A stretch of 64,000 nt of DNA from Halorhodospira halochloris (GTDB taxonomy: Bacteria; Pseudomonadota; Gammaproteobacteria; Nitrococcales; Halorhodospiraceae), in the NCBI RefSeq assembly GCF_002356555.2, contig NZ_AP017372.2, positions 2,462,501 to 2,526,500 on the forward strand, read 5' to 3'. Of the stretch, positions 27,079 through 57,009 are shown piece by piece; position 1 is the stretch's first letter; every line of letters begins with the position of its first letter. The notes beneath the pieces were generated by a model that ran no database searches, was not told the DNA's origin, and worked only from the letters and a program-made list of their open reading frames with translations. Made by a program: the position numbers and the translations under genes.

Positions 27079-29130
27079 TCAAATACGAAATCGCTGACTG
27101 TGGCTTCTCAACCTGGCAGCCACCTCGCTGAGCTTGGCACCTCCCTCATTCAACCGCTCAATAACGTGGGCATTTTCGCTGGCCAAATCATTAAGCCCCT
27201 GCACATTGCGGTTGACTTCTTCAGCGGTGTTGCTCTGTTCTTCCGCTGCGGAGGCAATCAAGGCCACCTGCTCCTCGAGGCCACTTAATGAGTTATGGAC
27301 ATTTTCCACGGCAGCCTTAATACGCTCGACCTCCTCGGCACTGCGAGCGGCCTGCTCACGACCATTGTGGATAGTTTGCGCTGACTCCTTGGCATCCTCT
27401 CGCAGCCCCTCAATCACAGCATGGATCTGCTTGGTCAAATCCTGAGTATTTGTGGCAAGGTTGCGCACCTCTTCGGCTACCACTGCAAATCCTCTACCTT
27501 CAGACCCGGCGCGAGCCGCTTCAATGGCCGCATTAAGTGAGAGCAGATTGGTCTGATCGGCTATCTCTTGAATGCTCGCGGTGATCTTGCCAACCTCCTC
27601 AGAGCGCTCAGCAAGTCTATCCACCACCGAGCGGGAGTTGTCCATAGTGCTCGAAAGGCGGCCCATCTCATTGACACCAGCCTCAGCCAAGTCCTTTATC
27701 TCCAGGCCTTTTTCTGCAGCCTGGGTGGTATGCTGATGGGCAACCTGAGTATTACTAGAGACCTCTTGCACGGTTGAGGCCATTTCATTCATAGCCGTAG
27801 CTATCTCATCAGTTTGCGAACTCTGCGTCTGCGCCATCTCGCGCGACCGCTGAGTCGACTCGCTTGTTTGTTTGGCCTGCTTCTCTACCTCTTGAGACGC
27901 CTCCAAAACCTCACCGACGGCGCTCCTGACGGTACGCAAAACCTCGTTAAAAGATGCTGCTAGATTGCTTAGTTCGTTATTACCAATAACAGTCAGTTCA
28001 CGACTAATATCGATGGTTGAGGCATCAGGCTGCATCGCATTTACTTCATCACGTAGTTGCTTGATCCGTTCATGTAGCCGTCTTGAAACGATATACAGCG
28101 GCACCGTCATAGTCAGGGCAACCAAAATCCCTGCTAGCACGAAATAGACCAGGCTACTTTGCACCTGCGCCTCGGATTCAGCAGTACGCTCCACAACTGC
28201 TTGATCAACGCTATTAGCAAGCTCCAGCGCGGCATCCCGCAGCTGTTGGTGATGATCTTCGTTAGCAGCGACGGCCTCATTGACACTCTCAAGCGCCTCT
28301 ACTTCCTGCTCCTTTGCGACCAAAACCGAGCCCTGATCGGCGAACATCCAGGCGTTAAAGGCACCCACCGCCGCCAGCAAATCCTGGGCCACCGATGCCA
28401 TATCCGCTGCGGCAATCCTCTCGAATGACTCTAGGTTGGCTACCATGGCCTCGAAAGAGGGTACTAAATCCTCGTCGTGTATCTGTTCGAGCTCATCGAG
28501 AGAAGACGCCTCGACCACATCGCGTAGCGCCCTTGAGACCTCTATTGCCCGCGCCAAGGCACGGGCCGCGTGATCTACTTGACCGATATCGGCAACCCCC
28601 GCTCGCTGCTCGTAGTCGGCCAAAGCCTCTCCAAACAGCCCTTCGATATCCCCCTCAACGCTATCGAAAAATTCCACTATGCCGTCCACCTGGCTCACTA
28701 AATCGGCGCGCAAACTGAGCAACCTTTCCAACTCAGGTCTTAGCTGTTGATAACTTTCCGAGAAACCCTCGAACCTATCGCGCAGCTCAGTTACATCGCT
28801 ACCATAGTTATCCATAAACCTGGTTGAACTCTCGAACACCTCCAGCTGCTGGACAAATGCCTGACTATATTCATCGGCACTGGGGACACTCTGTAATTGA
28901 TCAACGGAATCAGCATTAGCCATCTGGCCGCGCAGCTGCGAATACCCATCCAGGGATTCCGCTATCACCCGGCCTGCTTCGTCGAGCGGACGTGTCTCTT
29001 CCCGCAACTGCTGCTGATTAGATAGAGTGGAGGTCACTGATACCCAACCTATACCAATTACCAGGACCACACCGGCAAGGGCGAGGGCGACTAGGGAACG
29101 CAGCTGAGAGGCGATTGACATGCTGTTCAT
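27079..29130 (-). CDS. Transmembrane methyl-accepting chemotaxis protein
   Basis: The 683-residue receptor has a first membrane span at about 11-33, a periplasmic helical region of some 290 residues, and a second span at about 327-349. A HAMP segment follows, then a methyl-accepting coiled coil with the hairpin tip [20 protein letters not shown]. The periplasmic part is long and helical, rich in Glu/Leu/Ser, with no cysteine or recognised cofactor motif. It lacks a C-terminal CheR-docking pentapeptide (ends HSQRFRI). It lies 72 bases downstream of kaiC on the same strand. Confidence 0.9.
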
Positions 29131-29202: not shown

Positions 29203-30696
29203 CTAGTTGCCGACGTTGCCCAAGACCCGGTTAGGGTGGCCCTCAAGTATCCCTTCGACGCCCCTGAACTGCTCACCAATGTGCATACCCTGATGGTCAA
29301 TGGTGAACTGGCGAATACTCTTCTCGTGACCGGCGCCGCGCATCTTCAGGACGGTTAGGCCACGCTGCACTTCACCGCCCATCTCGACATAGCGCAAGAG
29401 TATTATTGAGTCAGTGAGAGTAGATATATGCGCCTCAGTAACCGAAGACCCGCCCATCAGCGACGGGGTACTGGCTGTAAAAAGCCCGGCTGTTTCACGC
29501 GCCTTAATGAAGGAAGTCAAACTGATGACAAACTCGCGAAAACCCCGCGGCGTTGCAACCCGCTCAAGCGCCGTAAGGCTATCAAGGGCAATTCTATGCG
29601 GCTTAAACTCATCAATGGTCTCTTTGATACGCACCAGGTGATCTTCCAGACCCTCCGATTCGGGGTAGCTGCAGCGAATTTGCAAATCTCCCCTCTGTTC
29701 AGCTGGCAGATAATCAACATTCCAGCCGTGGGCATTACGGATGATCTGATCACGGCTCTCCTCGAAGGCGAACAGCAGACAACGCTCTCCGGATTTAAGC
29801 CCGCCGGAAGTAAACTCAGTAGCAAGCAGGGTCTTACCAGTCCCGGTTGCCCCGGAGACCAGAACTATGGAGTCACGGTATATCCCGCCACCACACATAT
29901 CATCCAGCCGCTCGTTACCAGAGCTTATCCGCAGTTCAGATGAGCGCTGGGTAAGCTCCATGGCCGACAGCGGAATGGCTACAATCCCTCCCTCGGGCAG
30001 GATTGTAAAAGGGTATTCACCCTTCTGATGGGTGGTGCCTCGAAACTTCAGCACCTCTAAAGTGCGCCGTCTAGTCTCGGCTTCAAGGACATTGCGCAAA
30101 ATGACTACATTATCAGAAACAAACTCTTCCACCCCATGACGCGCGATGCTGCCGTACTCGGCTTCACGCTCGGCAGTCATTATCGAGGTTACTCCGATCT
30201 TTTTCATCTGCGCCGAAATCCGGTAGAGATCCCAGCGCACCTGTCGGGAATCAGGGAAGCGTGAAAACATAGCCCCCAGCGAATCGATCGCCAAGCGCTG
30301 GGCGCCAATCCGATTTACAGCCCCGCGAATGCGAGCAATAAGCCCGCCCAAATCATAGCTACCGGCCTCAATCGCCTCCGGGTCATTGTCCGGTGAGGCA
30401 TCTAGAAAGACCCAGTAACCCTGATCCTCCCAGCTCTGTATATCCCAACCGAAGGCCTGCAGGTTCTGGCGCAGATCATCCGCCGACTCTTCACAGGTTA
30501 CAAAGACCCCGGGCTCTGCGTATTGCTCGATACCAGCCGCCATAAATTGTGCGGCAAAGACCGTCTTAGCACTGCCAGGAGTACCAGCAACTAAAGTAGT
30601 CCGTCCGCAAGGCAAACCACCCTTGGCGATGGAATCAAAGCCAGCAATCCCGGTGGGTATCTTAGCAACGTTTCCATGTTTGGGCGCAGCACTCAT
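29203..30696 (-). CDS. kaiC: KaiC-type double-domain ATPase/autokinase
   Basis: From the ATG at 30696 the protein has 497 residues and two RecA-like domains. CI has Walker A GTPGSAKT (38-45) and the catalytic pair Glu69-Glu70. CII has Walker A GATGTGKT (282-289) and Glu312-Glu313. The phosphorylation region TEAHIST keeps the residues equivalent to Thr426, Ser431 and Thr432 of cyanobacterial KaiC (here Thr420, Ser425, Thr426). The C-terminal KaiA-binding tail of the cyanobacterial protein is about 20 residues longer and is missing. The gene follows kaiB by 4 bases, with GGAGGATTG before the ATG. KaiC sets phase or timing through ATP hydrolysis and phosphorylation; whether it oscillates here is unknown. 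Confidence 0.9.
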   Translation of the reverse strand: MSAAPKHGNVAKIPTGIAGFDSIAKGGLPCGRTTLVAGTPGSAKTVFAAQFMAAGIEQYAEPGVFVTCEESADDLRQNLQAFGWDIQSWEDQGYWVFLDASPDNDPEAIEAGSYDLGGLIARIRGAVNRIGAQRLAIDSLGAMFSRFPDSRQVRWDLYRISAQMKKIGVTSIMTAEREAEYGSIARHGVEEFVSDNVVILRNVLEAETRRRTLEVLKFRGTTHQKGEYPFTILPEGGIVAIPLSAMELTQRSSELRISSGNERLDDMCGGGIYRDSIVLVSGATGTGKTLLATEFTSGGLKSGERCLLFAFEESRDQIIRNAHGWNVDYLPAEQRGDLQIRCSYPESEGLEDHLVRIKETIDEFKPHRIALDSLTALERVATPRGFREFVISLTSFIKARETAGLFTASTPSLMGGSSVTEAHISTLTDSIILLRYVEMGGEVQRGLTVLKMRGAGHEKSIRQFTIDHQGMHIGEQFRGVEGILEGHPNRVLGNVGN

Positions 30697-30700
30697 ATAA

Positions 30701-31009
30701 TCAATCCTCCTCGCAACCGGAATGCTGGAGCAGCAGCTCAGCAACTCGCTCGGCATTGGCTAGATCACCGATAACTCGCAACGGCGGGCGGGGCGCTTCC
30801 CTTATGAGGGTTGGCGTAGCAACAATCTTTTCACTGTCACCCTTTTCTGGCTCACAGCAAAGATCAATGACCTCGATGTGATAGGCCTGCTCGCATAAGT
30901 ACTCGTTGCAAAGCCAATGCAGATTCCTTATCGCCTTATATGCCTGCGGACTATCCCCAACAACAAAGATCCGCAACCAATATTCGGCGTGTTGATGATA
31001 TTCAACCAT
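30701..31009 (-). CDS. kaiB: KaiB-like protein
   Basis: The 102-residue thioredoxin-like protein aligns with KaiB over its length: RIFVVGDSPQAYKAI matches the first strand-helix, VIDLCCEP the third, and KIVATPTLI contains the cis-proline ATPT motif, with VIGDLANAERV near the end. KaiB binds phosphorylated KaiC CI in cyanobacteria. It sits between a PAS/receptor-tip gene (5 bases upstream) and kaiC (4 bases downstream), so all three are surely one transcript. Confidence 0.9.
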   Translation of the reverse strand: MVEYHQHAEYWLRIFVVGDSPQAYKAIRNLHWLCNEYLCEQAYHIEVIDLCCEPEKGDSEKIVATPTLIREAPRPPLRVIGDLANAERVAELLLQHSGCEED

Positions 31010-31014
31010 CTTAG

Positions 31015-31764
31015 CTAGCGGCGCTTGGATTGCGCGCTCCCCTCTTCAGGACCAGGTTTTTGTTCCTCACCATCACCGCGTGCAGCGCGCAATTCGGATT
31101 CCAGCTCATCCATCAACTCGCTTATTGAGCTTGCCGCCTTGCCGCTTTCGTCAGCGAGCTTTTTCACCTCATCGGCAACCACCCCAAAGCCACGTCCAGT
31201 CTCACCGATACGCGCCGCCTCGACGCTCGCATTCAAGCTAAGAATACGCAGTTTCTTCAGTGTCTTGAGAATATTGCGCGAGGCCTTGCCGATTTGCTGA
31301 CCGATCTCCCCGACGCGCTCCATACGCTTGCGCCGCCGCGCCTCTTCCAGGCGCTCACCGATATCAAATACAGCACCCTCTAGGTAAAGGACTTCGCCAT
31401 TGCTATCGTAGACCGCCCCGCCGCGTTCATTAACCCAGCGCACCTCCCGCTTAGCAGTCCGGATGCGGTAATCGATATTCCAGGCCTCACGCTCTCGTGA
31501 TCCTTTCTCAATCGCCCTATCAACCTGCGGGGAGTCCTCATCATGGATCAAGTCCATGTATGAATGACGCCTATTGTTGATCAAGTCTGCGGGCTGATAC
31601 CCGGTCAACCCAGTAACCGCGCCCGCCATAAACAACATCGTATATTTGTTATCATTCTTACACCGATACATGAAACCGTTCATGCGAGCGGCTATGCTCT
31701 CTAGGGCCTCTAATTTACCATTCTGCCCCGAACTATCCTGGCTCCGCGCCTCCGCGCTACTCAT
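31015..31764 (-). CDS. Soluble PAS sensor with chemoreceptor signalling tip
   Basis: The 249-residue protein has no membrane span. A PAS fold covers about residues 30-135 ([56 protein letters not shown]). A shortened receptor hairpin with the tip [31 protein letters not shown] follows at about 140-235. The tip is the part of chemoreceptors that contacts CheA and CheW. It lacks long methylation helices. As the first gene before kaiBC it may feed a sensory input to the Kai proteins, or connect them to a chemosensory array. Confidence 0.85.
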
Positions 31765-31887: not shown

Positions 31888-32036
31888 GGGAACCTCTCAA
31901 CTCCCCTAGCGCCATCATCTGCCCCGCTGTGGAGGTCTTGACGCCAGGGATGGCGCCATGAAGCCTCCAGGGATAGATTCACGGCGCCCTCCACACCGGG
32001 GCAGATGATGGCGCTAGGGAGGTTTTAGAGGATCCG
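31888..32036 (+). repeat. Palindromic MITE-like element, copy 5 (best preserved)
   Basis: Two 35-bp arms (31901-31935 and 31988-32022) are inverted copies of each other with about two or three mismatches, separated by 52 bases. The arm carries GCGCCATCATCTGCCCCG and ends GTGGAGG. The loop is the family core CAGGGATGGCGCCATGAAG followed by GGATAGATTCACGGCG. Outer ends are GGGAACCTCT and AGAGGATCC. It lies in the divergent space between the kai operon and metH. Confidence 0.7.
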
Positions 32037-43804: not shown

Positions 43805-45517
43805 CTATGCCGAACTTTTATAACGTACTCTCACCCGATTACCCGGAGGGAAATACTCAACATCCTCACAAAGGGCGCGGACCAGCATTATGCCTCGACC
43901 CGCTGCTATCGCTGAGGCAACATCGCGACTATCCGAGGCGGCGAGAATACGCTCGTAATCGAACCCCGGACCGGTGTCTTCCACCTCAATCACCACGCCC
44001 CTTCCCGAGGCATCAGGATCGTAGTGCAAACGGATATATACTTCGCCGGCATCCAAATCAGCCATGGCCTGAGCGCGGCGCTGATAGTAGCTATCAAACC
44101 CCTCTTCATTGCGCTTTAGGCTCGAATCAAGGCCCAACACGCCATGCTCAAGGGCGTTAGTAAAAAGTTCAGCGATGACAACGTAGAGGCTTTGGCGATC
44201 CTCTTCCAAGGCTCCCAGATCGGCCAGCAGATTCATCATCGGGGGCACCGGGTTGACGTGCGCTAGCGTGCGCGCATCCAAGACCAGCTCCGTCTTCCAA
44301 CTAACGGCCTCGGCAGCGCCATAACCAATACAGCTGCTATTGGAGATCAAGCTGTCAAAGTCCAGCTGAATGAGTGTAGTATCGTCACTCGGCTCACTCG
44401 CCGAGCGGAAGTCATTTACCTGCTTAAGCAGGTCGTCGAAGCCACTGCCAGGCGAGGCATTCTTCAGTGTCTGCTCCAGTCTTTCATCGCCATACAGCGA
44501 GCCACCTTCGCCAGCCACCTCAACTATCCCGTCAGAGCAGGCGTAAAGATAACTGCGCTCAGGGATATCAAGATAACTCAATTGGCGACGTCCAGGAGCG
44601 CTGTTACGCTCTACCCCCAACGGCAAATCGCTGGATGTAAATGTCGCTACAAGCTCACCATCACTAATAAGCATGACGGGCGGCATACCGGCGTTCCAAA
44701 CGCCAACCCGGCGCCTACCGCTGTCTACCTCGATTAAAGCGGCGGTCAAAAACATATCCGGGGGCAGACTGCGGAACAGCTTTTCGTTGATAGCATCAAG
44801 CATCTCAGCAGGATGGGTCCCCCGGGCTACTAAATCATAGTAGACAGCCGCTAAACCCGGCACTCCAACCGCAGCGCCAATACCATGACCGGTAAAATCG
44901 CCAATTAATATCAGCAAATTACCGTTAGGGCGACGGCCAGCTAAGAGGATATCGCCACTTAGTATGGCAGCTGGTGAATAAAAGTAGCGCAACCCCGGCG
45001 TATTCAAGGCATTTGATGAGGTGGCCCTCGCCACTATCCGCTCTGCAGTCTCTTGTTCATGCTCGAGGCGTGCCTGATGGCTGCGCAGCACATCGCGCTG
45101 AGCCACTACCGTTCGGTACAGTTCCCTAGTGCGAAGCCAAGCCTCTATTTTCGCATTAAGCTGCACACGGCTGATCGGCTTAGTAATGAAATCATCGCCA
45201 CCGGCCTCTACACACTGCGCCAAGCGCTGTTCATCGGTTAGCGCAGTAACAAACAGAACCGGTACAAAACCGCCTCTATCGAGGGCCTTGATCCGACGGG
45301 TAGCCTCGTAGCCATCAATGCCCGGCATCATGATATCCATCAATACCATGTCTATCGGGTGCTCTTTGAAGCGCTCTACCGCCTCTTCGCCATTGGCTGC
45401 GGTAATAACTTTAAAACCGCGAGCTACCAGAACTGTTTCCAGTAGCATGGCATTGACGGGCTCATCATCGACAACCAAAAAAGTTGATTGATCCTGCTTT
45501 GCTATGCCGTCATCCAC
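43805..45517 (-). CDS. Response regulator with PP2C phosphatase and HATPase (HsbR-like)
   Basis: The 570-residue protein has an N-terminal receiver with phospho-acceptor Asp61 (MVLMDIMMPGIDGYEA), a short helix linker, and a SpoIIE/PP2C phosphatase domain at about 185-385 (GDFTGHGIGAAVG, YACSDGIVEV, SDDTTLIQLD). A C-terminal anti-sigma-type HATPase lies at about 430-565 (ELFTNALEHGVLG, EDTGPGFDYERI). This matches the HsbR architecture of Pseudomonas, which dephosphorylates and phosphorylates a STAS partner. The STAS gene 38 bases upstream is the likely partner. Confidence 0.92.
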   Translation of the reverse strand: MDDGIAKQDQSTFLVVDDEPVNAMLLETVLVARGFKVITAANGEEAVERFKEHPIDMVLMDIMMPGIDGYEATRRIKALDRGGFVPVLFVTALTDEQRLAQCVEAGGDDFITKPISRVQLNAKIEAWLRTRELYRTVVAQRDVLRSHQARLEHEQETAERIVARATSSNALNTPGLRYFYSPAAILSGDILLAGRRPNGNLLILIGDFTGHGIGAAVGVPGLAAVYYDLVARGTHPAEMLDAINEKLFRSLPPDMFLTAALIEVDSGRRRVGVWNAGMPPVMLISDGELVATFTSSDLPLGVERNSAPGRRQLSYLDIPERSYLYACSDGIVEVAGEGGSLYGDERLEQTLKNASPGSGFDDLLKQVNDFRSASEPSDDTTLIQLDFDSLISNSSCIGYGAAEAVSWKTELVLDARTLAHVNPVPPMMNLLADLGALEEDRQSLYVVIAELFTNALEHGVLGLDSSLKRNEEGFDSYYQRRAQAMADLDAGEVYIRLHYDPDASGRGVVIEVEDTGPGFDYERILAASDSRDVASAIAAGRGIMLVRALCEDVEYFPPGNRVRVRYKSSA

Positions 45518-45555
45518 TTTACACCCCTATACCAGACCGTGGCTAAGCCGGACCA

Positions 45556-45861
45556 TCACTCCTCAATCTGGAAGAGGCGCTGGAAGTTAGCAATTTCCAA
45601 AATCTTCCGCACTTCGCGGGTGCAATTGCGTAATACCACCTCACCGCCCTGGTCAGTAGCAAACTCCCTTAGCAGCAACAACATCCCAAGGGCTGAACTG
45701 TCCATGTACTCGGTCTCACGCAGATCGACAACGAAGCGGCGCACCCCCTCGGAACCCTTGTAAGCCTGCCTAAAATCCTTATGGAGGCTGAAATCGAAGT
45801 AGCCACTAACGTTCAAGACCAAGGTTTTGCCGCCATCTTCGGTGCTAGTATGAATCGCCAT
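45556..45861 (-). CDS. STAS-domain anti-anti-sigma factor (HsbA-like)
   Basis: The 101-residue STAS protein carries YMDSSALGMLLLLR, with the canonical phosphorylatable Ser56. It begins with a beta-strand stretch typical of SpoIIAA-like proteins. Unphosphorylated forms bind an anti-sigma factor or another target. Its place directly before the receiver-phosphatase-kinase gene suggests a partner-switching pair. In Pseudomonas the analogous HsbA works with FlgM and a diguanylate cyclase; no such partner lies in this window. Confidence 0.9.
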   Translation of the reverse strand: MAIHTSTEDGGKTLVLNVSGYFDFSLHKDFRQAYKGSEGVRRFVVDLRETEYMDSSALGMLLLLREFATDQGGEVVLRNCTREVRKILEIANFQRLFQIEE

Positions 45862-45918
45862 ATTCGTAGTTACTCCTAAATTGGAAAGTTTTCAGTTTTA
45901 CCGAATGGGCTGTTGAGT

Positions 45919-47169
45919 TTAAAACAGCTCCACATCACCGTGATCCATCGACGCCTGTTCGACCTTCCTTTGCTTTGCTCGCTGCTCCTCGCGAGTAGCC
46001 CGTTTTGAGGCAAGCATCTCCCTTGCCTCGCGCAGTCGGGCGGCATATTCGCTACCATGAACATCCTCTTCTGCTATCTCCTGCAGCACCCCGCGCACCC
46101 CATCAAGATAGACATTCAGGCCCTCTACCCCGGTCCGGGAACTCTCGACCAACTGGGTAACGATATCCTCAAACTGCAAGGCCCGCACCGCATCTGCCAC
46201 ATGCCCATCAATCTGCCTACTTACATTGGATATCTTGGTGACCTGCTGCTCTACTTCCTTATCAAGATTGCGCAGGGTCTCCATCATTTGCGATATCTGC
46301 TCTTTGGTAGAGAGCGTGACGTTCATATCAGTTGAGGCCATCTCACCGACTTCACGCCGTGTGATCTCGACAAGCTCATTGATGCTGGTGACCTCATCAG
46401 CAATTTGCTGATTGAAGACGTTCGATTTTTCAGCCAGTTTACGCACCTCTTCTGCGACAACTGAAAAGCCCCTGCCCGACTCACCTGCCCTTGCCGCCTC
46501 TATACTAGCATTAAGGGCTAACAAGTCGGTCTGATCCGCAATTCCCTTAAGGTCGCCCAGCAGGTTATCTATGTTAGACATCTGAGCAAGTATGTCATCG
46601 ATGCGGGAAACCGTCTTCACGCTCCGCCGGCTCATATCGACGATAAGGTCGACGTAGGTGTTTAAAAAACTCTCGGTCTCCGATACAAACTCACTGATGC
46701 CAAACTCATCCATAGCCGAATCTGTACCGGTGCGCTCAATCACCGCCCGGGCTAAACGCTCCTGCTCGTCAGTAGCTCTATCCATGCCGTTGAAGCTCTC
46801 ATTGAGCGATTGAATAGCGTCGCGAACCAAGCCATGGATCTGCTCAAGATCACCTGATACATTGCGGAACTCGGCATTCAGGCTGTCATCAATATCATGA
46901 AGAAGGTCACGCAAGGCCTCTTCAAGCTCGCTTGCGGTCTGTTCCGCCTGCTCCCGCCCTGACTGATGTTCGGCAACTATGCCCACAGCTCCCCAAGCAA
47001 CCGCCACCACAATCACAGCGACTGAACCGATAGCAGGCCAAACATACGCCGCAACAGCAGCAGCTACGGTTATAATCAACAGCGGTATTGCGTAGCGCCA
47101 CAATCTGGAGATGAGGTAGGTTGCCTCCAGGCTCTCTTTAAAGCCACTCTGTTGCCCAGGATCGCTCAT
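45919..47169 (-). CDS. Membrane-anchored chemoreceptor-like protein
   Basis: From the ATG at 47169 (AAAGGT before it) the protein has 416 residues. Two close hydrophobic helices (about 26-44 and 45-65) leave no periplasmic sensor. The rest is a receptor coiled coil with the tip [20 protein letters not shown]. The C-terminus is a charged helix ending MDHGDVELF. It lies 4 bases after cheB and so belongs to the chemotaxis operon. It may sense membrane or cytoplasmic state, or act as an adaptor. A longer frame from 47205 would overlap cheB. Confidence 0.85.
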
Positions 47170-47173
47170 AAAT

Positions 47174-48229
47174 CTACCTTTCGCCACTGCTAGTTGATGC
47201 AGCACTGGCTGCCTGAATTATCGCGCCAGCAATACTGCCAATAGGCAAAACCCGTTCGGCTGCCCCAGCCTTAACCGCTGCACCCGGCATACCCCAAACT
47301 ACGCTACTCGCCTCGTCTTGGGCGATTGTGTGGGCCCCAGCTGCACGCATCCGCCCCAGGGCCTCTGCACCGTCGGTCCCCATCCCGGTCAACAGCACTC
47401 CGATTCCATGTCGGCCGGCGACACTGGCCATTGAGTCAAACAGAACCTCTACCGATGGGCGATGCCTTTTGACCAACTCCCCTGCACGTAAACGGCAGCT
47501 ATACCGGCTACCATCGCGAGTCAACTCCAAGTGTTTCTCGCCTCCCGGAGCAATGTAGACATGGCCGGGCAAGATGCGCTGACCATCCTTCGCTTCGCAG
47601 ACTGATGCTTCACATATACCATCCAAGCGCTGAGCAAAGGCTGCAGAAAACCCTGGCGGCATGTGCTGCGTTATCAGAATAGGCGGCGCTGTTTGCGGCA
47701 TCTCTTCGAGCACTTGCTGAATTGCTACGGTGCCGCCGGTAGACGCACCTATAGCTATAACCTTGGAGCTGCCAATCTTGGCAACAGGATGCTGGGGACG
47801 CGGCTTACCCGCTCTCTGATCCGATCTACCGACTTTGGCTCGTGCCGCCGCCCGTACCTTGGCTACAATCTCCTCGGCATAGGACTCCAAGCCATGGGCG
47901 ATATCCATGCGCGGTTTGCAAACAAAATCTATCGCGCCCAGTGACAACGCCTCAATGGTCTCTTGCGCGCCTTCCGCGGTAAGCGTGGAAACCATTACCA
48001 CCGGCATCGGGCGCAACCGCATCAGGTTACGCAGGAAAGTGATGCCGTCCATGCGCGGCATCTCTATATCCAGAGTAAGGACGTCGGGGTTGAGCTGCTT
48101 TATCTTTTCACGGGCGTCATAAGGATCATGGGCCGTTCCCACAACCTCAATATCGTCCGCCTGTTCAAGAATCTCGGTCAGCAGGCGGCGCACCAGTGAC
48201 GAGTCATCAACTATTAACGCCCGAATCAT
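47174..48229 (-). CDS. cheB: Protein-glutamate methylesterase/deamidase CheB
   Basis: The 351-residue protein has a receiver domain with Asp54 ([12 protein letters not shown]) and a methylesterase domain with catalytic Ser in GASTGGT, His in [10 protein letters not shown] and Asp in [10 protein letters not shown]. It demethylates receptors when phosphorylated by CheA. It follows cheD by 13 bases. Confidence 0.96.
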
Positions 48230-48242
48230 AAGTATCAGTCAC

Positions 48243-48932
48243 TCAAAAAAGATCGATGTCACCGGCCTTCGGTGACTCATCAATCTCATGGAGATAGTGC
48301 TCTTCGCGTCGCACAACGGTGTTATTACGCGTAGTATAGAGCTTCTTCGAACGCGCCCGCCCACTCTCAGGAAAGTACTGCACCTTGCGTGGGTAATCGC
48401 CACCTAAATCCTCGCTTAGCAAACGCAGGCCCTCGGTGGCGATATATTCGCGAGCAAACTCAATATTCCGCTTGCCTATGTCGGTTACTGCATCCAACAC
48501 TCGGCCACCGCCGAAGAGTTTAACCTCAAGATCACTGCGTTTGCCTCCTAAAGCCATGATGCGGTTGATCAGCTGCTCCATAGCGTAGTTGCCGTAGCGG
48601 GCCGACTCACTCAGAGGATCGTTGACCCGACCTGCCCCGCCGCGCAACGGCAGCATGAAGTGGTTCATGCCCCCTACCGCTAGGCGCCGATCACGTACAC
48701 AGGCTGAGACGCACGACCCCAGGGTTGTCACAACCATCTCCCCACCTCGAGTCACATAAAACTCGCCCGGCAGCAACTTGGCAGCAAAAACCCCATGTTG
48801 AGGATCCCAGTAACGGTTAATATGCTCAAATCCGGGCATGCTCGGTGGCGGTTCGGCGGACCGATTACCCCCGGCAGTGCCATAGCTGTTATCAGTGCGT
48901 CTTCTTGTAGATAGTTCGGCCATGGGATTCAA
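48243..48932 (-). CDS. cheD: Chemoreceptor glutamine deamidase CheD
   Basis: The 229-residue CheD has the catalytic Cys in TTLGSCVSACVRD and the conserved His in GGMNHFMLP. CheD deamidates receptor glutamines and can act with CheC-type phosphatases. The C-terminus is PKAGDIDLF, close to the GDVELF tail of the receptor-like protein two genes downstream. The ATG at 48932 overlaps cheR by 41 bases; the Met at 48923 is an alternative. Confidence 0.95.
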   Translation of the reverse strand: MNPMAELSTRRRTDNSYGTAGGNRSAEPPPSMPGFEHINRYWDPQHGVFAAKLLPGEFYVTRGGEMVVTTLGSCVSACVRDRRLAVGGMNHFMLPLRGGAGRVNDPLSESARYGNYAMEQLINRIMALGGKRSDLEVKLFGGGRVLDAVTDIGKRNIEFAREYIATEGLRLLSEDLGGDYPRKVQYFPESGRARSKKLYTTRNNTVVRREEHYLHEIDESPKAGDIDLF

Positions 48933-49740
48933 ATCTATCGCTGACCTTCCACAGCGTCTCGGAATGACCTATGTATAACCATGCAGGATCGGTCATTATC
49001 TCGGCTACGCGCTCAAAAAGTCGGCTCTGAATCTCCTTATTAAAGTAGATAATTACGTTACGACAGAAAACTATCTCGAACTGTTCACGGAAGGGCCAGT
49101 CATGGAGCAAGTTAAGCTGATCGAACTCGACCAAACGCTTTAGCTCCGGTCGCACCCGCACTAGCCCGTCGTTGTTTCCTTTGCCGCGCAGGAAGTTCTC
49201 GCGCAACCGCTGTTGACTTATACCATCAACCCGGCGCCGGTCGTAGATCCCCCTAGCGGCGTGCTCGAGGACATTGCTATCCAGATCGGTGCCAATAATT
49301 TTGACACGGTCAGGAGCACGGGCGCCGAAGACTTCGCGAGCGGTTATCGCTATCGAGTAAACCTCCTCCCCGGTTGAGCATCCTGCTGACCAGATCCGCA
49401 CCTTCCCCGGAGCAGCCTTTAGCACTCCGGCAAGATGGTCAAAGTGGTGCGACTCGCGAAAGAAAGCCGTCAGATTTGTCGTCAAGGCATTGACGAAATG
49501 CGCCATCTCGCGACGCTGCGGGTCATTGACGAGCTGCTTACGATACGAAGCAAAATCGCGCAAGCCGAGTGCCCTTAGCCGCCTAGCAAGGCGCGAGTAG
49601 ACCATATCGCTCTTCGCCTCACTGAGCTGGATACCGGTCTCACGCCCTACCGTTTCGCGAATCCACTCAAAATCATCCCAGGTGAAGTGGAACTCGCGCT
49701 CAGCTTCAGCCGCCTCCCCCCGTGCCGCGGTTCTTGCCAT
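48892..49740 (-). CDS. cheR: Chemoreceptor methyltransferase CheR
   Basis: The 282-residue CheR has an N-terminal helical domain and a SAM-binding domain with VRIWSAGCSTGEEVYSIAI, IIGTDLDSNVLEHAARGIYD, DQLNLLHDWPF and VFCRNVIIYFN. It methylates receptor glutamates. It lies 34 bases after the soluble PAS receptor whose C-terminal EWEEF is a likely docking site for it. Confidence 0.96.
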   Translation of the reverse strand: MARTAARGEAAEAEREFHFTWDDFEWIRETVGRETGIQLSEAKSDMVYSRLARRLRALGLRDFASYRKQLVNDPQRREMAHFVNALTTNLTAFFRESHHFDHLAGVLKAAPGKVRIWSAGCSTGEEVYSIAITAREVFGARAPDRVKIIGTDLDSNVLEHAARGIYDRRRVDGISQQRLRENFLRGKGNNDGLVRVRPELKRLVEFDQLNLLHDWPFREQFEIVFCRNVIIYFNKEIQSRLFERVAEIMTDPAWLYIGHSETLWKVSDRFESHGRTIYKKTH

Positions 49741-49774
49741 ATCTTCTCAGGCTCTCCCTATCCCCTGCTCCGGC

Positions 49775-51856
49775 TTAAAACTCTTCCCACTCGCTGTCCT
49801 CCTGTTGCGCGGCTGAGCTACGCTTGGAAGACTGCGTCTGGCGCTGCTGCGTCCCTCCTGATGGGGCAGTAGTGGTGCCTTTTGCTCCGCCCTGCGCAGC
49901 ACCGCCCGCCTTACTGCCCCCCGTTCGCCCAGCACCCGCACCATTCCCTGATCCAGCCCTTGACCCAGAGCTAGAGCCATATTGGCCGCGCCCGGACTGG
50001 CTTGAACCGCGGGAAGAAGAACTAGCACTGCTATGGCTAGACTTAGCGGCAGAGCGCTTCTTGGTCCCGCCGTTCTGATTGCCACCAAAGAAGCTCATCA
50101 GCTGAACCAGCGAGGTCGACTGCTCATCCAGCGACTCAGCTGCTGATGCCATCTCTTCGACAAGCGCCGCATTCTGCTGAGTCACCTCATCAAGCTGACT
50201 TACCGCCTTGTTTATCTCATCAATTCCCGAGGACTGCTCTTCGGTAGCCGAGGCAATCTCTTCGATCTTGTCGTTGACCGACTGGAAGGCAGTTACTATC
50301 TCTTGCAGGGTTTCACTAGACTCACTGACCAGCTGAGTTCCGTCTTCCACCTTTTGACCGCTATCGTTTATAAGCCGTTTGATATCTTTGGCTGCAGTAG
50401 CACTGCGCTGGGCCAAGTTGCGCACCTCGGCAGCCACCACCCCGAAACCGCGGCCATGCTCACCGGCCCGTGCCGCCTCAACCGCGGCGTTAAGGGCCAG
50501 TAAGTTGGTCTGGAAGGCGATCTCATCAATAACCGTAATAATATCCGATATTTCGCGGCTAGACTGCTTGATCGCCGACATCGCCTCGACAACCTGGCCG
50601 GATATCTCGCCTCCGCGCTCGGCCTTTTGCCGTGCCGTACCAGCCATCTGGAGTGATTCCCGAGCATTCTCGGCGGTCTGCTGTACCGTGCTAGTGAGTT
50701 CCTCGATGCTTGAGGCAGTCTCCTCGAGTGAACTCGCCTGCTCTTCGGTACGCTGCGAAAGGTCTTGGTTGCCCTGGGCAATCTCCGAAGATGCCGAATC
50801 CAAGCTATCGGCCGTTTCGCGCACCTCATTAACGGTGCGCCGCAACACACCGATAGTCGAGTTAACGTAGTCTTGCAGCTCTCCAAAATCGCCCTTGAAC
50901 TCACCTTCCATGCTCTGGTTAAGGTCACCTTTGGCAACCAAGTTCATCACCCTAATGACCTCACGCACCGGGGCTTGGGTCACATCGAGAACCAGGTTTA
51001 TATCCTCACTGAGGGTACGAATGAACCCCTCAGACATATGTGAAGTCTCGACCCTCTCACTCAACTGGCCGGCTTGAATGCGTTCGATAAGACCCTCGAC
51101 ATCCTTTTGGGCCTTTTTCTCATCTTCGCGACGATGCCACTCTTCAGTTATGTCGAAGACTTCCAGTGTATTGCCGAGGAATGTGCCATCATTAGCGTCC
51201 TCGCCAGTAATGTGAACATCAAAGCGCAACTCACCAATATCGAGACGCTCATGCATGGCGTCGTCGCGAACCTTCTTCATCTGCTCGGCAAAAGGTACCA
51301 ATTGCGGCAGCAGCTCAAGCAATGAGCGACCTTTGAGATTGCGCGCCGAGAACCCCCGGTTTACCTCGCTTATCTCGCGCTCGCGGCGCGATAGCATCCG
51401 CTCCATAGGGTCATTGACATAGGTAATTACCCCATCCGGGTCGGTCATTAAAAAGGGAGTGGTGCATGTCTGCATCGCCAGCATGAACCGGTAATAGCGG
51501 TTGAACTCCTCACTGCTGACGGTTATCTGATCACCTTGGTTATTGCTCGCCATCTCTGTACTGCTCCCGCTTGGTTGACCACCCGAGGTAGCCGCCTCCG
51601 GCTGCTCAGGCTGTTGTTGCTCATCTTGGCGCGACTCTCGGTGAGAACCCGGGTTAAAATCCGGTGACGATTCACTGGCAGCTGCTGCTCCCTGCCCATC
51701 ATGAGAGTGCCCATCAGTAGAATTCTCATCAGCAGAGCTATCATCGCCGCTCGGAGGATCTTCTTTCATCCACGCTAGCGGATCGCGGCCAAGCTTTTTA
51801 TCGCCATTGCTAGCCCCACTCTTCTTACTACCTTTCGAGCCACCGCTACTCGCCAC
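49775..51856 (-). CDS. Soluble PAS chemoreceptor with C-terminal CheR-docking pentapeptide
   Basis: The 693-residue protein has no membrane span. The first ~115 residues are Ser/Gly/Asp-rich and look disordered. A PAS domain follows (about 120-240, [19 protein letters not shown]), then one or two HAMP-like segments ([19 protein letters not shown] and [12 protein letters not shown]), and the receptor coil with tip [21 protein letters not shown]. The C-terminal ~95 residues are Ser/Gly/Ala-rich, finishing DSEWEEF, which resembles the NWETF-type tether for CheR and CheB. A GTG at 51856 follows AGGAGGGAGGAGCC. It sits next to parA, as the soluble receptor TlpT does next to PpfA in Rhodobacter. 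Confidence 0.9.
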
Positions 51857-51907
51857 GGCTCCTCCCTCCTATATAGCTACTCGCCGCCGGCTTAAAGTCA
51901 CAACTAT

Positions 51908-52693
51908 TCATCCGTTCACCTCGGCTGGTTCCAGGACGCGCCGATGGCGGATATCTTCAGCCAGGGCGGCATAGTCTTTGGCTCCGTTGCTGTCAGCACG
52001 GTACTCAAACACCGTCTGCCCAAATCCCGGTGCCTCAGCCAGAGACACGTTATCTCTGATTGCCGTACGCAGTACCTGGCCTGGGAAATACTCTTCAAGT
52101 TTCCCTCTCACCTCGCGCGGCAACCGGCGCTGACCGTTGAAACGAGTCACCAGGACAAACTTGTTGCGCGATATGTGCAGCCCCTGTTCAACCCGCATCA
52201 GGGTCCGCATAAGCCCAGCTAGGCCTTCAAGGGCCAAGTAATCGCAGGAGACCGGCATGATCACATCATCAGTCGCCAACAACGCATTGATTGCTAGCAG
52301 ACCAGATGAGGGCGGACAATCAATAATGACGAAGTCGAACCCCCCGCCGATCTGCTCCAAGGCATTGGCCAAAATCCAACCCCGCTCCCTGCCGCCAGAC
52401 ATCTGCTCTACCTCAGGCAACCGCGGCCCGGGCGGCACCAATAGCAGGCCATCACGAGCCTGCTGAGCCCTATCATTGATAGCCACGCCATTGAAAAAGA
52501 CATCATCAAGCCCCGGGTCAAGGCCTTCAATCCCCATGCTGGCGGCGAAATGACCCTGCGGATCAAGATCTAGCCCGAGCACCCTGTGACCGCTGCGGAC
52601 CAAAGCATGAGCGACATTGACCGCGGAGGTGGTCTTGCCAACACCCCCCTTCTGATTAAGAAAAACCAGGCAGCGTGGCTGTTGAGCGCTCAT
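51908..52693 (-). CDS. ParA-family ATPase in the chemotaxis operon
   Basis: The 261-residue ParA/MinD-type ATPase has the deviant Walker A FLNQKGGVGKTTSAVNVA, LDLDPQGHFAASMG and FVIIDCPPSSG. No parB or parS is nearby. Its location between two soluble receptor genes and among che genes suggests a role like PpfA or ParC in positioning and segregating chemosensory arrays. Confidence 0.9.
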   Translation of the reverse strand: MSAQQPRCLVFLNQKGGVGKTTSAVNVAHALVRSGHRVLGLDLDPQGHFAASMGIEGLDPGLDDVFFNGVAINDRAQQARDGLLLVPPGPRLPEVEQMSGGRERGWILANALEQIGGGFDFVIIDCPPSSGLLAINALLATDDVIMPVSCDYLALEGLAGLMRTLMRVEQGLHISRNKFVLVTRFNGQRRLPREVRGKLEEYFPGQVLRTAIRDNVSLAEAPGFGQTVFEYRADSNGAKDYAALAEDIRHRRVLEPAEVNG

Positions 52694-52724
52694 GCTAGTG
52701 CCCTTTCCCTACCGGTCGCAGCAA

Positions 52725-54113
52725 TCATTTGAGCCTATCCATTTCGCTAGCTAGACGATCAAGCAGTTCAACTACCGTCTGGGAATTATCAGCTAGGTGC
52801 TCCAGCTCGCCGGCCGCAGCATCTACATCACCGCGCTGATAGAGTGCTGCTGCCTTTTTACCGTGGGCATGGACTGCGGCATGCGGCTCATCAAGTTCGC
52901 CAAAGGCCGGCAACTGGCGGATAGCTTGATCATCAACCGCATCGTACCATTTGCCCAACCGGCACTGATGGTGATCAGTCAGCTCGGCACTATCGACCTC
53001 TTCGCGACCGGCAAGCATCGAAGCAATGCGCATCTTCCACATTACGTGGTCGAACTTACTCCGGTGGATAAATACCTTAGGCAGATTGAGATCGGTCATC
53101 TCATCCATCTCGCGGGAGAGGATGCCGCGCGAGTCGCCTAGCACATCCAAGGTGTTTTCGACATCATTGACATTGCGCTCGGTTCGATCAGTAACCGCAC
53201 TGATCGACTCGGCGACCTGGGTCACCGCCCCCTTCTGCTCATTGATCACCGAAGAGACATTCTGCACGTGCTCGGTAACCCCGCGCATGCGCTCTGCAAC
53301 CTGCTGCATGGTCTCGCTAGTCTCCACAGTTGCCTCCCGGCCACGCTCGACCGCGCTGCCCATATCTTCCACCGACTTTGATATCCCTTCGGTCTCATCC
53401 CGCAAGACGCGAATGCGCTGAGCTATATCGACAGTGGCGTTCTTGGTCTGATCAGCCAAGCGCCTGACCTCCTGAGCTACTACAGAGAAGCCAGCCCCGG
53501 CTTGGCCTGCCCTAGCCGCTTCGACCGAGGCATTTAGGGCAAGCATATTGGTCTGGAAGGCGATCTCCTCGATGAGCTCTATAATGGAGCCTATCTCATC
53601 CGAAGCCTTATTAAGCTGCTTGACTTTTTGCGATGCTGTGTCAGCCAACTCGGCGATCTCTTGGACTGTCTCATTAGTCCGCCGCGAGGACTGATCGCCG
53701 GAATCAACCAGCTTCTGCACCGCCTCAGTCTCGGTAGCCACGGCACTGCTGTTCTCGGCCACTGTATCAATACTCGCGGCCAACTCCTCTGATGTAGAGG
53801 CAATCGTCTGGCTGCGCTCGCTTGTCTCGCGGATAGTCATGCGCATTTCTGAAGCCGCAACAAGGCTATCAGCGATGTTGCTGGTCAAGGCGACAACATC
53901 CTTGAGATTTTGTGACTCCTTACGGCCAATAACACCCGCGAGGTCATGGAGCGCTCGGGATAGCTTGCAGTCTCCTTTAGGCACAGCCAGATAGTCGCCA
54001 CTGGCTATCTGCTCAACCATCTTCAGCATCTGCTCTACGCGCTGCGGGCTAACCCAACCCTGAGCTTCAAGGTCGCTCTCGTTGGAGGTGGAGTGCAGGC
54101 TATCCATTATCAT
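52725..54113 (-). CDS. Soluble chemoreceptor with C-terminal zinc-binding CZB domain
   Basis: The 462-residue protein lacks membrane spans. The receptor coil (tip [21 protein letters not shown]) fills about residues 60-330. A CZB domain follows: [29 protein letters not shown] and [11 protein letters not shown] contain the conserved His and Cys residues. CZB domains bind zinc and can sense zinc or oxidants such as hypochlorite. It overlaps cheW by 14 bases. Confidence 0.92.
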
Positions 54114-54717
54114 TACCCTCGCTGTCTTGGGTTACTGAGCGGACCACATCGGCGACTTGGCTATGGTCGTCAGCAACGGCCAGATCCTCGTCGCTAAGTA
54201 ATTCATCAACATCGAGGACGATCACCATCTTGTTGTCTTCTACTGTAGCCAAGCCGCGGATAAAATCTGTGCGGATATGGGCACCAAAATCGGGTGCGGG
54301 GCGTATCTGCTCAGACTGAAAGGTATAGACCTCGGATAAGGCATCAACTACCAGTCCAATTATCCTGTCACGTTCCCCGCAAACCACCCTTACCATCACC
54401 ACAACGGTAAACTTGCTGTACTCCTGCGCTTGCATACCGAAACGCTCACGCAGATCTATCACCGGCACAATAGTGCCACGCAGGTTTATTACCCCCTTCA
54501 CATAGTGTGGCGTATTGGGGATCGGGGTCGCCTTTTGCCAGCCCTTGATCTCCTGCACCCGCAGGATATCAACGCCATACTCCTCATCACCGAGGGTAAA
54601 GGTCAGATACTGCTCGCCATCTGCTGCCGCCTGCATAGCATCAACCGTGTCCGCACCGCTGCCTAAGGCCGCGGTTCGTTCGCTTGCCAAATTCTGTTGC
54701 TCGCTTTGCTCTGTCAT
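54100..54717 (-). CDS. cheW: Chemotaxis coupling protein CheW
   Basis: The 205-residue CheW has a ~35-residue polar N-terminal extension, then the two SH3-like subdomains: [43 protein letters not shown] and [23 protein letters not shown]. It links CheA to receptors. A ~30-residue acidic tail is also present. It follows cheA by 57 bases. Confidence 0.95.
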
Positions 54718-54774
54718 CTTCGCTCCCGTACCCGGTGACCATGCTACGTCTGACCAACCATTTTCTAGCCAGTA

Positions 54775-57009
54775 CTAGTCGGCCTCTTCACGCTCAGGTA
54801 TTACCGGCTGCCGAGGACCGCCTCGACTCATCTCGACCAGCCCCGCTATATCGAGTATTAGCGCTACTGTTCCATCACCCAGTATGGTTGCGCCGGCTAT
54901 ACCTGGAACCCGTAAGTAGTTGGCTTCAAGGCTCTTTATAACCACTTGCTGCTGATCCAGCAAATCATCCACAAATACCCCGATGTAGGAGTCCTCATCC
55001 TCGACGATAACCATCAAACCGCCAGCGAGTTCGTTGCGCGACGGCTCGGTATCAAAAAGCTCATGCAGGCGCACTATCGGCACATAACCCTCGCGCCAGT
55101 GGTAGACTTCGCCTCTACTGGTAACCCGACTAACCTTGCTGCTATCAATTTGCAGCGACTCGATAACCGAGACCAGCGGCACAATAAAGGTCTGATCACC
55201 AACCCGGAACAGCTGCCCATCAAGTATTGAGAGGGTTAACGGTAACGAGATGGTAATGGTTGTCCCCACCCCGGCGCTCGAGCGAACATTGAGACTGCCA
55301 GAGAGAGAGCGGATGTTGCGCTTGACGACATCCATGCCCACGCCCCGCCCGGAGTACTCCGTGGCTTGGTCGTGGGTAGACAGGCCGGGGTGAAAAATCA
55401 GATCAAAGACCTCGCTATCGGCGAGTTCAGCTCCATCCTCTACCAAACCCGCTTGGCGCGCCTTATTGAGCAGCTTGTCGCGGTCTATGCCCTTGCCATC
55501 ATCGCCTATCTCAATGATTATATTGCCGCCCTTATGGTAGGCATCAATAGTTATCTGGCCTTTTTGCGGCTTACCCAAGGCCTGACGTTCTTCGGGCATT
55601 TCTATGCCATGATCGACGCTATTGCGGACCAAGTGGACCAGCGGGTCGATAATCTTTTCCATGACCGTCTTGTCCAGCTCGGTCTGTTCACCTTCCATGT
55701 TGAAGTCGACTTCTTTGCCCAAGGCCCTGCTTGTATCATGGACTATCCGCGGCAGACGCGAGTAGGCAAAGCTGATCGGGACCATGCGAATACGCATGAC
55801 ACTCTCCTGCAGCTCGCGCGTATTACGCTCAAGCTGAGCTAGGCCATCCTGTAACTCCTCGAGGCGCTCCTGAGTAAATTCCTTGCCGATCTGGCTGAGC
55901 ATAGACTGAGTAATCACCAGCTCGCCAACCATGTCTATCAGGGCGTCAATCTTGCCGGTGTCTACTCTTATAGAACTGGAACTCTTGGACTTCTTAGCGG
56001 TGCCATCGCCCCCTTTAGCTCCCGCCTGCGCCTTGGCCGCAGAGGCCTTGGCATCAGTTGCTGGCGCAGCGTCCGCCGCATTCGCTGACTGATTGGCAGG
56101 CACAGATGCAGCAGCGGGCGCATCTCCCCCGGCTGCGGAGTGCGATTCGTTAGCTTGCTCGAGCTCTTCATCTTTGGCTGCAGAGGCTGAAGATTGGGCC
56201 TTTCCAGCTAGTGGCTCAATTTCTATAACGGCGTCGTCTTCAACCCATTCGAAGACCTCGCGGATATCCTCACGTGAAACCTTGCCGTGCAGCTGCAGAT
56301 CCCAGGAGAGGTAGCAAGACTCAGGATCGAGTTCTTCAAAAGGAACCAGACCAGAACTATTGCACTCAACCTTCAACTCGCCCAGATCGGCTAGGGCTCT
56401 GAACAAGCGGGCCGGATCGTTCCCGGTAGTTAGCAGATGCGGCTCTGGCTCAAAGTGAATGCGCCAGCCGTGATGGTTATCTCCATTACCTTTACCGCCG
56501 CCAGCGCCAGCGCTCCCATCACCACCGCTGCGCGCACCGCCGGCAGCTGCCCCATTGCTGTCAGCACCCGGACTTGAGGCAGCACCCCCATCTTTGCCAT
56601 TGCTCCCAGTGCCTGAACTGCCTATTGCAAGCTGCTCGTCCAAGCTCCGCTGAGCCGCACTTAGGGCATCACTATCGAGCTGTTGATCGGCCTGGATCGC
56701 CTCTAACATACTGCGCAGGCAATCAACCGCAGATAGTAGGGCGCTTACCGCTTCCGCGGTAACTGCCTGTTCGCCGCTGCGCAGGCGATCAAGAAGTGTT
56801 TCCATCCGGTGAGTAAAATCGGATATGGCGGTAAGCCCGAAGGTCCCGGCCCCACCTTTGATTGAGTGTGCTGCGCGGAATACCGTGTTAAGGTTTTCCT
56901 TGTCGGGCTGTTGCGGGTCTAGCTCAAGCAGACCCGACTCCATCGTATCTAGACCCTCGAAGCTCTCTTCAAAAAAGGTCTGCAGAAACTGGCTGAGATC
57001 AACGCTCAT
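54775..57009 (-). CDS. cheA: Chemotaxis histidine kinase CheA
   Basis: The 744-residue kinase has a P1 Hpt domain with His48 (FRAAHSIKGGAGTFG) and a long Gly/Ser/Ala-rich linker. A P2-like domain at about 180-265 (GWRIHFEPEPHLLTTGNDP) is followed by a second Ala-rich linker, then P3 dimerisation (IRVDTGKIDALIDMVGELVI) and a P4 ATPase with N box LVRNSVDHGIE and G boxes GDDGKGID and GRGVGMDVV. The P5 CheW-like domain closes the protein. It autophosphorylates and passes phosphate to CheY and CheB. Confidence 0.96.
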   Translation of the reverse strand: MSVDLSQFLQTFFEESFEGLDTMESGLLELDPQQPDKENLNTVFRAAHSIKGGAGTFGLTAISDFTHRMETLLDRLRSGEQAVTAEAVSALLSAVDCLRSMLEAIQADQQLDSDALSAAQRSLDEQLAIGSSGTGSNGKDGGAASSPGADSNGAAAGGARSGGDGSAGAGGGKGNGDNHHGWRIHFEPEPHLLTTGNDPARLFRALADLGELKVECNSSGLVPFEELDPESCYLSWDLQLHGKVSREDIREVFEWVEDDAVIEIEPLAGKAQSSASAAKDEELEQANESHSAAGGDAPAAASVPANQSANAADAAPATDAKASAAKAQAGAKGGDGTAKKSKSSSSIRVDTGKIDALIDMVGELVITQSMLSQIGKEFTQERLEELQDGLAQLERNTRELQESVMRIRMVPISFAYSRLPRIVHDTSRALGKEVDFNMEGEQTELDKTVMEKIIDPLVHLVRNSVDHGIEMPEERQALGKPQKGQITIDAYHKGGNIIIEIGDDGKGIDRDKLLNKARQAGLVEDGAELADSEVFDLIFHPGLSTHDQATEYSGRGVGMDVVKRNIRSLSGSLNVRSSAGVGTTITISLPLTLSILDGQLFRVGDQTFIVPLVSVIESLQIDSSKVSRVTSRGEVYHWREGYVPIVRLHELFDTEPSRNELAGGLMVIVEDEDSYIGVFVDDLLDQQQVVIKSLEANYLRVPGIAGATILGDGTVALILDIAGLVEMSRGGPRQPVIPEREEAD

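Follow-up and report, generated by a model that had tools for sequence, protein, structure and literature searches.

Among described Kai systems, two stand closest to the locus considered here. The KaiA3-KaiB3-KaiC3 system of Synechocystis and other bacteria, as set out in parts of PMC11372060, has a regulator gene upstream of kaiB, usually followed by kaiC, and a Ser/Thr phosphorylation pair; the regulator, KaiA3, is a chimera of a receiver and a KaiA domain and is encoded upstream of kaiB3. The purple bacterium Rhodobacter sphaeroides has a KaiBC hourglass that operates without KaiA, as described in parts of PMC10076222. Operons in which kaiC neighbours a histidine kinase, GGDEF/EAL or receiver protein, and a kaiC context without kaiB, are known from portions of PMC3164672. 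Little has been established about the routes by which signals reach KaiC in systems that lack KaiA. Here, a kai operon of the halophilic purple sulfur bacterium Halorhodospira halochloris is compared with these systems. It lies within a 64,000-nucleotide stretch of DNA (the window; NZ_AP017372.2, positions 2,462,501 to 2,526,500, G+C 54.9%) from a genome consisting of a single contig of 2,834,560 bases, and encodes a PAS protein with a C-terminal segment resembling that of methyl-accepting chemotaxis proteins (MCPs), followed by KaiB, KaiC and a transmembrane MCP.

The operon is tentatively proposed, at somewhat less than even confidence, to be a KaiA-less, KaiC-based switch in which the PAS protein serves as an input subunit of KaiC. 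The PAS domain would sense a cytoplasmic cue (redox, a ligand or energy state), and the helical segment would dimerise and pass the state of the PAS domain to KaiC, either by touching it or by way of a partner common to both proteins. The PAS protein would take the gene slot that is held by a receiver-KaiA-like protein of the KaiA3 type in related operons, and KaiB would be an accessory, diverging in H. halochloris and already missing from the locus of H. abdelmalekii. The nature of the cue, dimerisation, KaiC contact, signalling direction and the loss of kaiB are inferred. An input role is favoured because the genes are closely packed and the pair of PAS gene and kaiC survives where kaiB is missing, and because the helix is constrained and the KaiA3-like slot is filled in a lineage with neither a KaiA match nor the KaiC tail associated with KaiA-like proteins. 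The features concerned are as follows, in window coordinates.

31015–31764, minus strand: PAS protein of 249 residues ('PAS-tip') with an MCP-like segment towards its C-terminus (Pfam PAS_3 and partial MCPsignal; orthologue in H. abdelmalekii)
31363–31677, minus strand: PAS domain, residues 30–134 in the model (Pfam, AlphaFold model)
31081–31353, minus strand: helical MCP-like segment, residues 138–228 (tip alignment, AlphaFold)
30701–31009, minus strand: kaiB, 102 residues, divergent (Pfam and NCBIfam profiles, alignment)
29203–30696, minus strand: kaiC, 497 residues (profiles, alignment)
30562–30585, minus strand: Walker A motif of KaiC CI, GTPGSAKT, with Gly replaced by Ala before Lys
29830–29853, minus strand: Walker A motif of KaiC CII, GATGTGKT, canonical
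29419–29439, minus strand: TEAHIST, equivalents of KaiC T426, S431 and T432 (alignment)
29206–29241, minus strand: KaiC C-terminus GHPNRVLGNVGN, without a [RQH][LIMVF]xx[ML]F tail (sequence comparison)
27079–29130, minus strand: transmembrane MCP, 683 residues, with an ordinary tip (Pfam MCP signalling domain above cut-off)

Conservation of the operon and its proteins

The genes are transcribed from the minus strand in the order PAS gene, kaiB, kaiC and MCP gene, with intergenic gaps of 5, 4 and 72 bases. An earlier interpretation made from the letters of the DNA (the sequence-only reading) had reported a spacing of 4–5 bases between successive genes from the PAS gene to kaiC and a transmembrane receptor directly downstream, and both observations agree with the measured layout. 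The start of kaiC was placed at an ATG following GAGGAGG; the mechanical open reading frame begins at 30756, within kaiB.

Twelve genomes of the family, nine of them Halorhodospira, were searched. A KaiC above the cut-off of the NCBIfam profile circ_KaiC was found in four of the nine Halorhodospira genomes, and three of the five genomes without one are 77–83% complete. The nearest named relative in the comparison set is Halorhodospira abdelmalekii DSM 2110, which part of PMC8877833 groups with H. halochloris as Halochlorospira. There, metH is followed on one contig by the PAS gene, kaiC, the MCP gene, metY and ettA, with 63 bases between the PAS gene and kaiC and no kaiB. In a second Halorhodospira genome (G005), kaiB and kaiC lie between metH and metY without the PAS gene or the MCP, and the kaiBC stretch of a third (G004) gave no match for metH, metY, ettA, the PAS gene or the MCP. 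Loci were then compared across the clade that holds the window's KaiC, which comprises 38 loci once 17 distant KaiCs of the 55 in the tree are set aside. The PAS gene was present at two of these, the window and H. abdelmalekii. The N-terminal 377 residues of the MCP matched only the same two genomes among ten searched, and by these matches the PAS gene and the MCP have an identical distribution. The sequence-only reading had named absence of the PAS gene beside kaiBC in other genomes as evidence against it, and the survey divides on this point: the gene stands beside kaiC in two of the four Halorhodospira genomes with a circ_KaiC match, in H. abdelmalekii without kaiB, and at none of the 34 loci outside Halorhodospira (flanks mostly of 1.5 kb, several loci sharing a genome).

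The single KaiB match of the H. abdelmalekii genome lies at another locus. A contig break as the cause of the missing kaiB was rejected, the PAS gene, kaiC and MCP gene being on one contig of 60,651 bases. It is likelier that kaiB was lost from this locus than that it was never present, because kaiB precedes kaiC in two other Halorhodospira genomes, and in one of these the pair is likewise flanked by metH and metY. The persistence of the PAS gene and kaiC without kaiB hints that the PAS sensor is a partner of KaiC. The window's KaiB is itself divergent, scoring 62.3 bits against Pfam KaiB (cut-off 27) and 49.4 bits, far below the cut-off of 145.3, against circ_KaiB, the NCBIfam equivalog for circadian KaiB. 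Non-synonymous divergence (dN) was apportioned by three-point arithmetic on pairwise values, which gave a KaiB branch of approximately 0.39 in the window compared with 0.18 in G004 and 0.16 in G005 (2.2–2.5 times longer), and a KaiC branch of 0.09 compared with 0.07 in each (approximately 1.3 times longer). On these values, the more rapid kaiB evolution falls in the lineage that has a sister species with no kaiB at this locus. A V-L-x-G-L motif near the KaiB C-terminus, in a region that includes fold-switch residues, is absent from the window's protein; of 20 aligned sequences, it is present in G004, G005 and nine others and absent from a further eight.

The PAS protein scores 66.2 bits against Pfam PAS_3 (cut-off 25.6) and 70.2 bits against MCPsignal (cut-off 34.6), the latter match covering only positions 23–108 of the 172 in the model. 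Its H. abdelmalekii orthologue is 78% identical over residues 22–231. Between the two species, the helical segment (residues 141–231) is 90% identical with a dN of 0.07 and the PAS domain 68% identical with a dN of 0.25; KaiC is 81% identical (dN 0.13) and the MCP 67% identical (dN 0.27), all dN values being usable as relative values only since synonymous change is close to saturation or past it. By this comparison the helical segment is the best-conserved part of the PAS protein.

As a family, KaiC proteins are autokinase and ATPase hexamers. The window's KaiC scores 610.7 bits against circ_KaiC (cut-off 546.25) and 376.8 bits against Pfam KaiC/ATPase (cut-off 26.6). Both catalytic Glu pairs (CEES and FEES) are kept and TEAHIST aligns with T426, S431 and T432, as had been claimed from the sequence for the Glu pairs and for the Ser431/Thr432 equivalents. 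The accompanying claim that both Walker A motifs are kept holds for CII, which alone matches GxxxxGK[ST], and not for CI, where Ala stands in place of the Gly before Lys. The same Ala occurs in 21 of the 55 KaiCs compared, 18 of them outside Halorhodospira and the others in three of the four Halorhodospira KaiCs. Because it is common among KaiCs, and many of those that carry it score above the circ_KaiC cut-off in surveys that scored the best three, or three to four, candidates per genome and so give lower bounds, the KaiC assignment was retained; the idea that the Ala alone marks a dead CI domain was rejected on the same counts. A second kai locus is present in the same genome (L112, 6097–9829, or approximately 244097–247829), encoding a 485-residue KaiC, a 93-residue KaiB and a 666-residue protein with a PAS-like start. 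In the tree this KaiC is separate and distant from that of the operon, and each of the nine Halorhodospira genomes searched has a KaiC of its sort, scoring 217–262 bits against circ_KaiC.

The gene slot upstream of kaiB

Many related loci encode a receiver-domain protein of approximately 270–330 residues upstream of kaiB, and it is this slot that the PAS gene occupies in the window. All twelve of these proteins that were examined match Response_reg, and two have a weak match to Pfam KaiA (best E 0.00087) that falls below the cut-off. The receiver-KaiA-like proteins share a C-terminal motif, GxL[VMAT]xxYR, and by description fit the KaiA3 type.

The slot protein and the KaiC C-terminus vary together. 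A conserved tail, [RQH][LIMVF]xx[ML]F, a criterion of our own chosen after viewing the same sequences, ends 26 of the 38 KaiCs. By tblastn, in which 12 receiver-KaiA-like proteins served as queries and so matched their own loci by construction, a KaiA-like protein is encoded upstream in 25 of the 26 tailed loci, the last (L162) having only 295 bases of upstream sequence. When the C-terminal motif is used instead, 23 of the 26 tailed loci have such a protein, 12 loci have neither feature and the motif never occurs where the tail is missing (Fisher p 1.7e-7, a value that overstates independence, as many loci are close relatives). No KaiA-like part was found within 1.5 kb in any of the 12 tail-less loci, one of which (L145) has a weak receiver match. 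Both the tail and the KaiA-like gene are absent from all four Halorhodospira KaiCs and their loci. The tail, noted among loci L124–L168, is a candidate site at which activators of the KaiA3 type would dock outside cyanobacteria, and its link to a KaiA-like neighbour predicts which non-cyanobacterial KaiCs would use an activator of this type. At two loci (L167 and L168) whose genomes belong to other classes of the phylum, the slot holds a different substitute: kaiBC is preceded by a protein of approximately 230 residues that, judged by eye, resembles a PAS domain joined to a LuxR-type DNA-binding end, and would be a further sensor in the KaiA3-like position.

No KaiA match was found in any of the 12 family genomes, some of which are incomplete, nor was a receiver or KaiA-like match found within 1.5 kb upstream of the window's kaiBC. 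The PAS protein was considered as a diverged KaiA3 and rejected as such, given an hhalign probability of 0.1 (E 0.48) and its PAS and MCP-like domains. The suggestion in the sequence-only reading that the protein is an input replacing KaiA gains support as regards position, in a KaiA-like slot of a lineage without KaiA matches, and not as regards homology or the KaiC tail, both of which are lacking. A stronger form of the proposal is unlikely. In it the PAS protein would be a new substitute for KaiA without being its homologue: a helical dimer, gated by the PAS domain and produced together with KaiC, that would directly set the phosphorylation or ATPase state of KaiC. On that account the H. 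abdelmalekii switch would work without its own KaiB, sensory input rather than KaiA/KaiB timing would drive KaiC, and the adjacent chemoreceptor might receive the output.

The receptor-like segment and rival explanations

In AlphaFold monomer models, one built from 5 aligned sequences and one from 30 (mean predicted local distance difference test score, pLDDT, 78 for both), the PAS domain is followed by one unbroken helix spanning residues 138–228. The shortened chemoreceptor hairpin read from the sequence is thus retained as a similarity to MCPsignal, and the hairpin itself was not confirmed. A structure-database search with the first model returned mostly LOV and PAS proteins, matched through the PAS part, and also YfmS with CheW (9a72), YfmS being a soluble receptor of B. 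subtilis. In all nine full-length receptors found in the genome, Q-T-[NDEH] precedes L-x-L-N-A; the PAS protein has K-L-R there. Among its relatives, the last two positions of the Q-T-N site read L-K, Q-K, L-S or M-R, and Q-T is also absent from ten other listed family members (L109, L010, L143, L144 and L177–L182); two relatives, from Stutzerimonas and Marinobacter, retain Q-T-N. Four of the five trimer-contact positions are kept in the PAS protein (the equivalents of Tsr N381, E385, R388 and V398, placed by Tsr numbering). The fifth, a Phe, is Lys, and this position varies among the genome's own receptors too. The trimer-contact residues are named in part of PMC8466855, where the last is printed as Val353. 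Genes resembling cheA (54775–57009) and cheW (54100–54717) lie on the operon's strand at a distance of 22–25 kb. They belong to a chemotaxis cluster (43805–57009) that also holds two receptors flanking a ParA-like protein, cheR, cheD, cheB, a third receptor and a receiver-phosphatase, all named from their translations; the che genes and the three receptors span 45919–57009.

These features bear on a rival explanation in which the PAS protein acts as a small soluble receptor within a CheA/CheW array that, together with the downstream MCP, would let the state of KaiC or a redox cue bias swimming. The significant MCPsignal match, the four conserved trimer contacts, the YfmS–CheW fold match, the che genes on the same strand and an MCP that is distributed as the PAS gene is all speak for it. 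The absence of Q-T-N counts less than it might, since the motif is not universal among 27 other tips in one alignment (19 QTN, 2 QTT, 3 NTN and 3 KIN). However, K-L-R in the protein and the lack of Q-T in its ten listed relatives set them apart from every full-length receptor found in the genome, the segment spans half of the MCPsignal model and the predicted helix is unbroken. Chemotaxis coupling is therefore considered improbable, and the claim of the sequence-only reading that the tip could couple to CheA, although che genes and trimer contacts are present, is at this stage unsupported. It is also possible, though rather doubtful, that the PAS gene encodes an independent cytoplasmic sensor that was inherited upstream of the kai genes and is co-transcribed with them without any Kai-specific function. 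Such an origin would suit a family that is widespread without kai genes (relatives in Rhizobium, L143, L187 and L188, lie directly upstream of minCDE at all three annotated loci read) and that is linked to kaiC in two sister species only. It sits poorly with the 5-base gap, with a PAS gene and kaiC that stay joined where kaiB is missing and with the strong constraint on the helical segment. A decaying clock, in which kaiB, and possibly kaiC too, survive as remnants of a KaiA3B3C3-like timer that lost its KaiA-like gene, the KaiC tail and then kaiB, with the PAS gene incidental, would explain why the tail and KaiA-like gene are missing for all four Halorhodospira KaiCs, the long kaiB branch and missing sister kaiB, and the five of nine genomes without a KaiC above the cut-off, three of which are the incomplete ones. 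Nevertheless, a KaiC conserved between the species with intact catalytic and phosphorylation residues makes this very unlikely.

Several observations weigh against the PAS protein as an input subunit. The case draws on two sister species and on gene comparison, and the presence of the gene in their kaiC operons may reflect one inherited event. The KaiC tree of 55 sequences does not unite the two species, H. abdelmalekii pairing instead with G004; as support for this pairing is weak (0.67), no inference on branching within the genus was drawn. The PAS protein shows no homology to KaiA, as the hhalign probability indicates, and the restricted distribution that the MCP shares with the PAS gene fits a chemotaxis role equally well. 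The PAS-tip family occurs mostly away from kai genes: of 148 plasmid records that match the protein by tblastn, 20 of them over at least 80% of the query, 93 are from Rhizobium. A survey of 299 proteobacterial genomes (E <= 1e-28) gave at least eight with a match, including the window's own, a lower bound as the best nine candidates per genome were scored; among the other seven, one protein (L183) lacks the tip and two (L180 and L182) each hold one in-frame TAG. Relatives of the same architecture are mostly small (190–263 residues), one frame (L179) being longer, and neither kaiB nor kaiC was found in the flanks of the 11 PAS-plus-tip relatives examined, of which L010 ends directly after the match.

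The surroundings of the operon were also surveyed. A scan for promoters and terminators was uninformative, giving one promoter-like and six terminator-like sites where shuffled sequence gave means of 3.4 and 4.6, and no match was found in the phage records searched. Between the PAS gene and metH lies a palindromic repeat of approximately 141 bases (31890–32030), the arms of which (31899–31935 and 31988–32024) are 92% complementary. Copies of it are scattered through the genome and number at least 40 (40 of 326 candidates were scored; among the 85 hits of the search, many represent one copy matched on both strands).

Comparison with described systems

If the PAS protein is indeed an input subunit of KaiC, it would feed KaiC independently of KaiA, through a protein that carries its own sensor domain, and the notion of an input instead of a clock could be tested with two or three purified proteins. 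One family offers the comparison, with kaiBC alone, with the PAS gene, kaiBC and receptor, and with the PAS gene, kaiC and receptor without kaiB. No literature joining Halorhodospira and KaiC was found in a search of mainly open-access sources, and none of the titles listed there on Kai proteins and chemotaxis concerns an operon of PAS-tip, Kai and MCP genes. The window shares a signalling-protein neighbour of kaiC with the operons in PMC3164672, the portions of which cited here do not name a PAS/MCP-tip neighbour.

The PAS protein resembles stand-alone proteins of Rhizobium, Burkholderia and other proteobacteria, which have the same two-part architecture and the same type of tip at approximately 35–45% identity; unlike the window's PAS gene, the genes for these lack kai neighbours within the flanks examined. 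Short soluble chemoreceptors of the YfmS type likewise have a short soluble signalling segment, but the PAS protein differs from them in lacking the Q-T-N motif. The gene order and Ser/Thr phosphorylation pair of the window are those of the KaiA3-KaiB3-KaiC3 system. The regulator, however, is a PAS domain with an MCP-like helix in the window and a receiver with a KaiA-like domain in that system, so far as parts of PMC11372060 describe it; in addition, the window's KaiC is without the tail that accompanies receiver-KaiA-like regulators, and kaiB is absent from the sister's locus. With the R. sphaeroides hourglass the window has in common a KaiBC pair without KaiA in a purple bacterium, but the R. 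sphaeroides KaiC, as presented in parts of PMC10076222, combines two Ser sites with an extension of approximately 50 residues at its C-terminus, whereas the KaiC of the window has a Ser-Thr pair and no extension.

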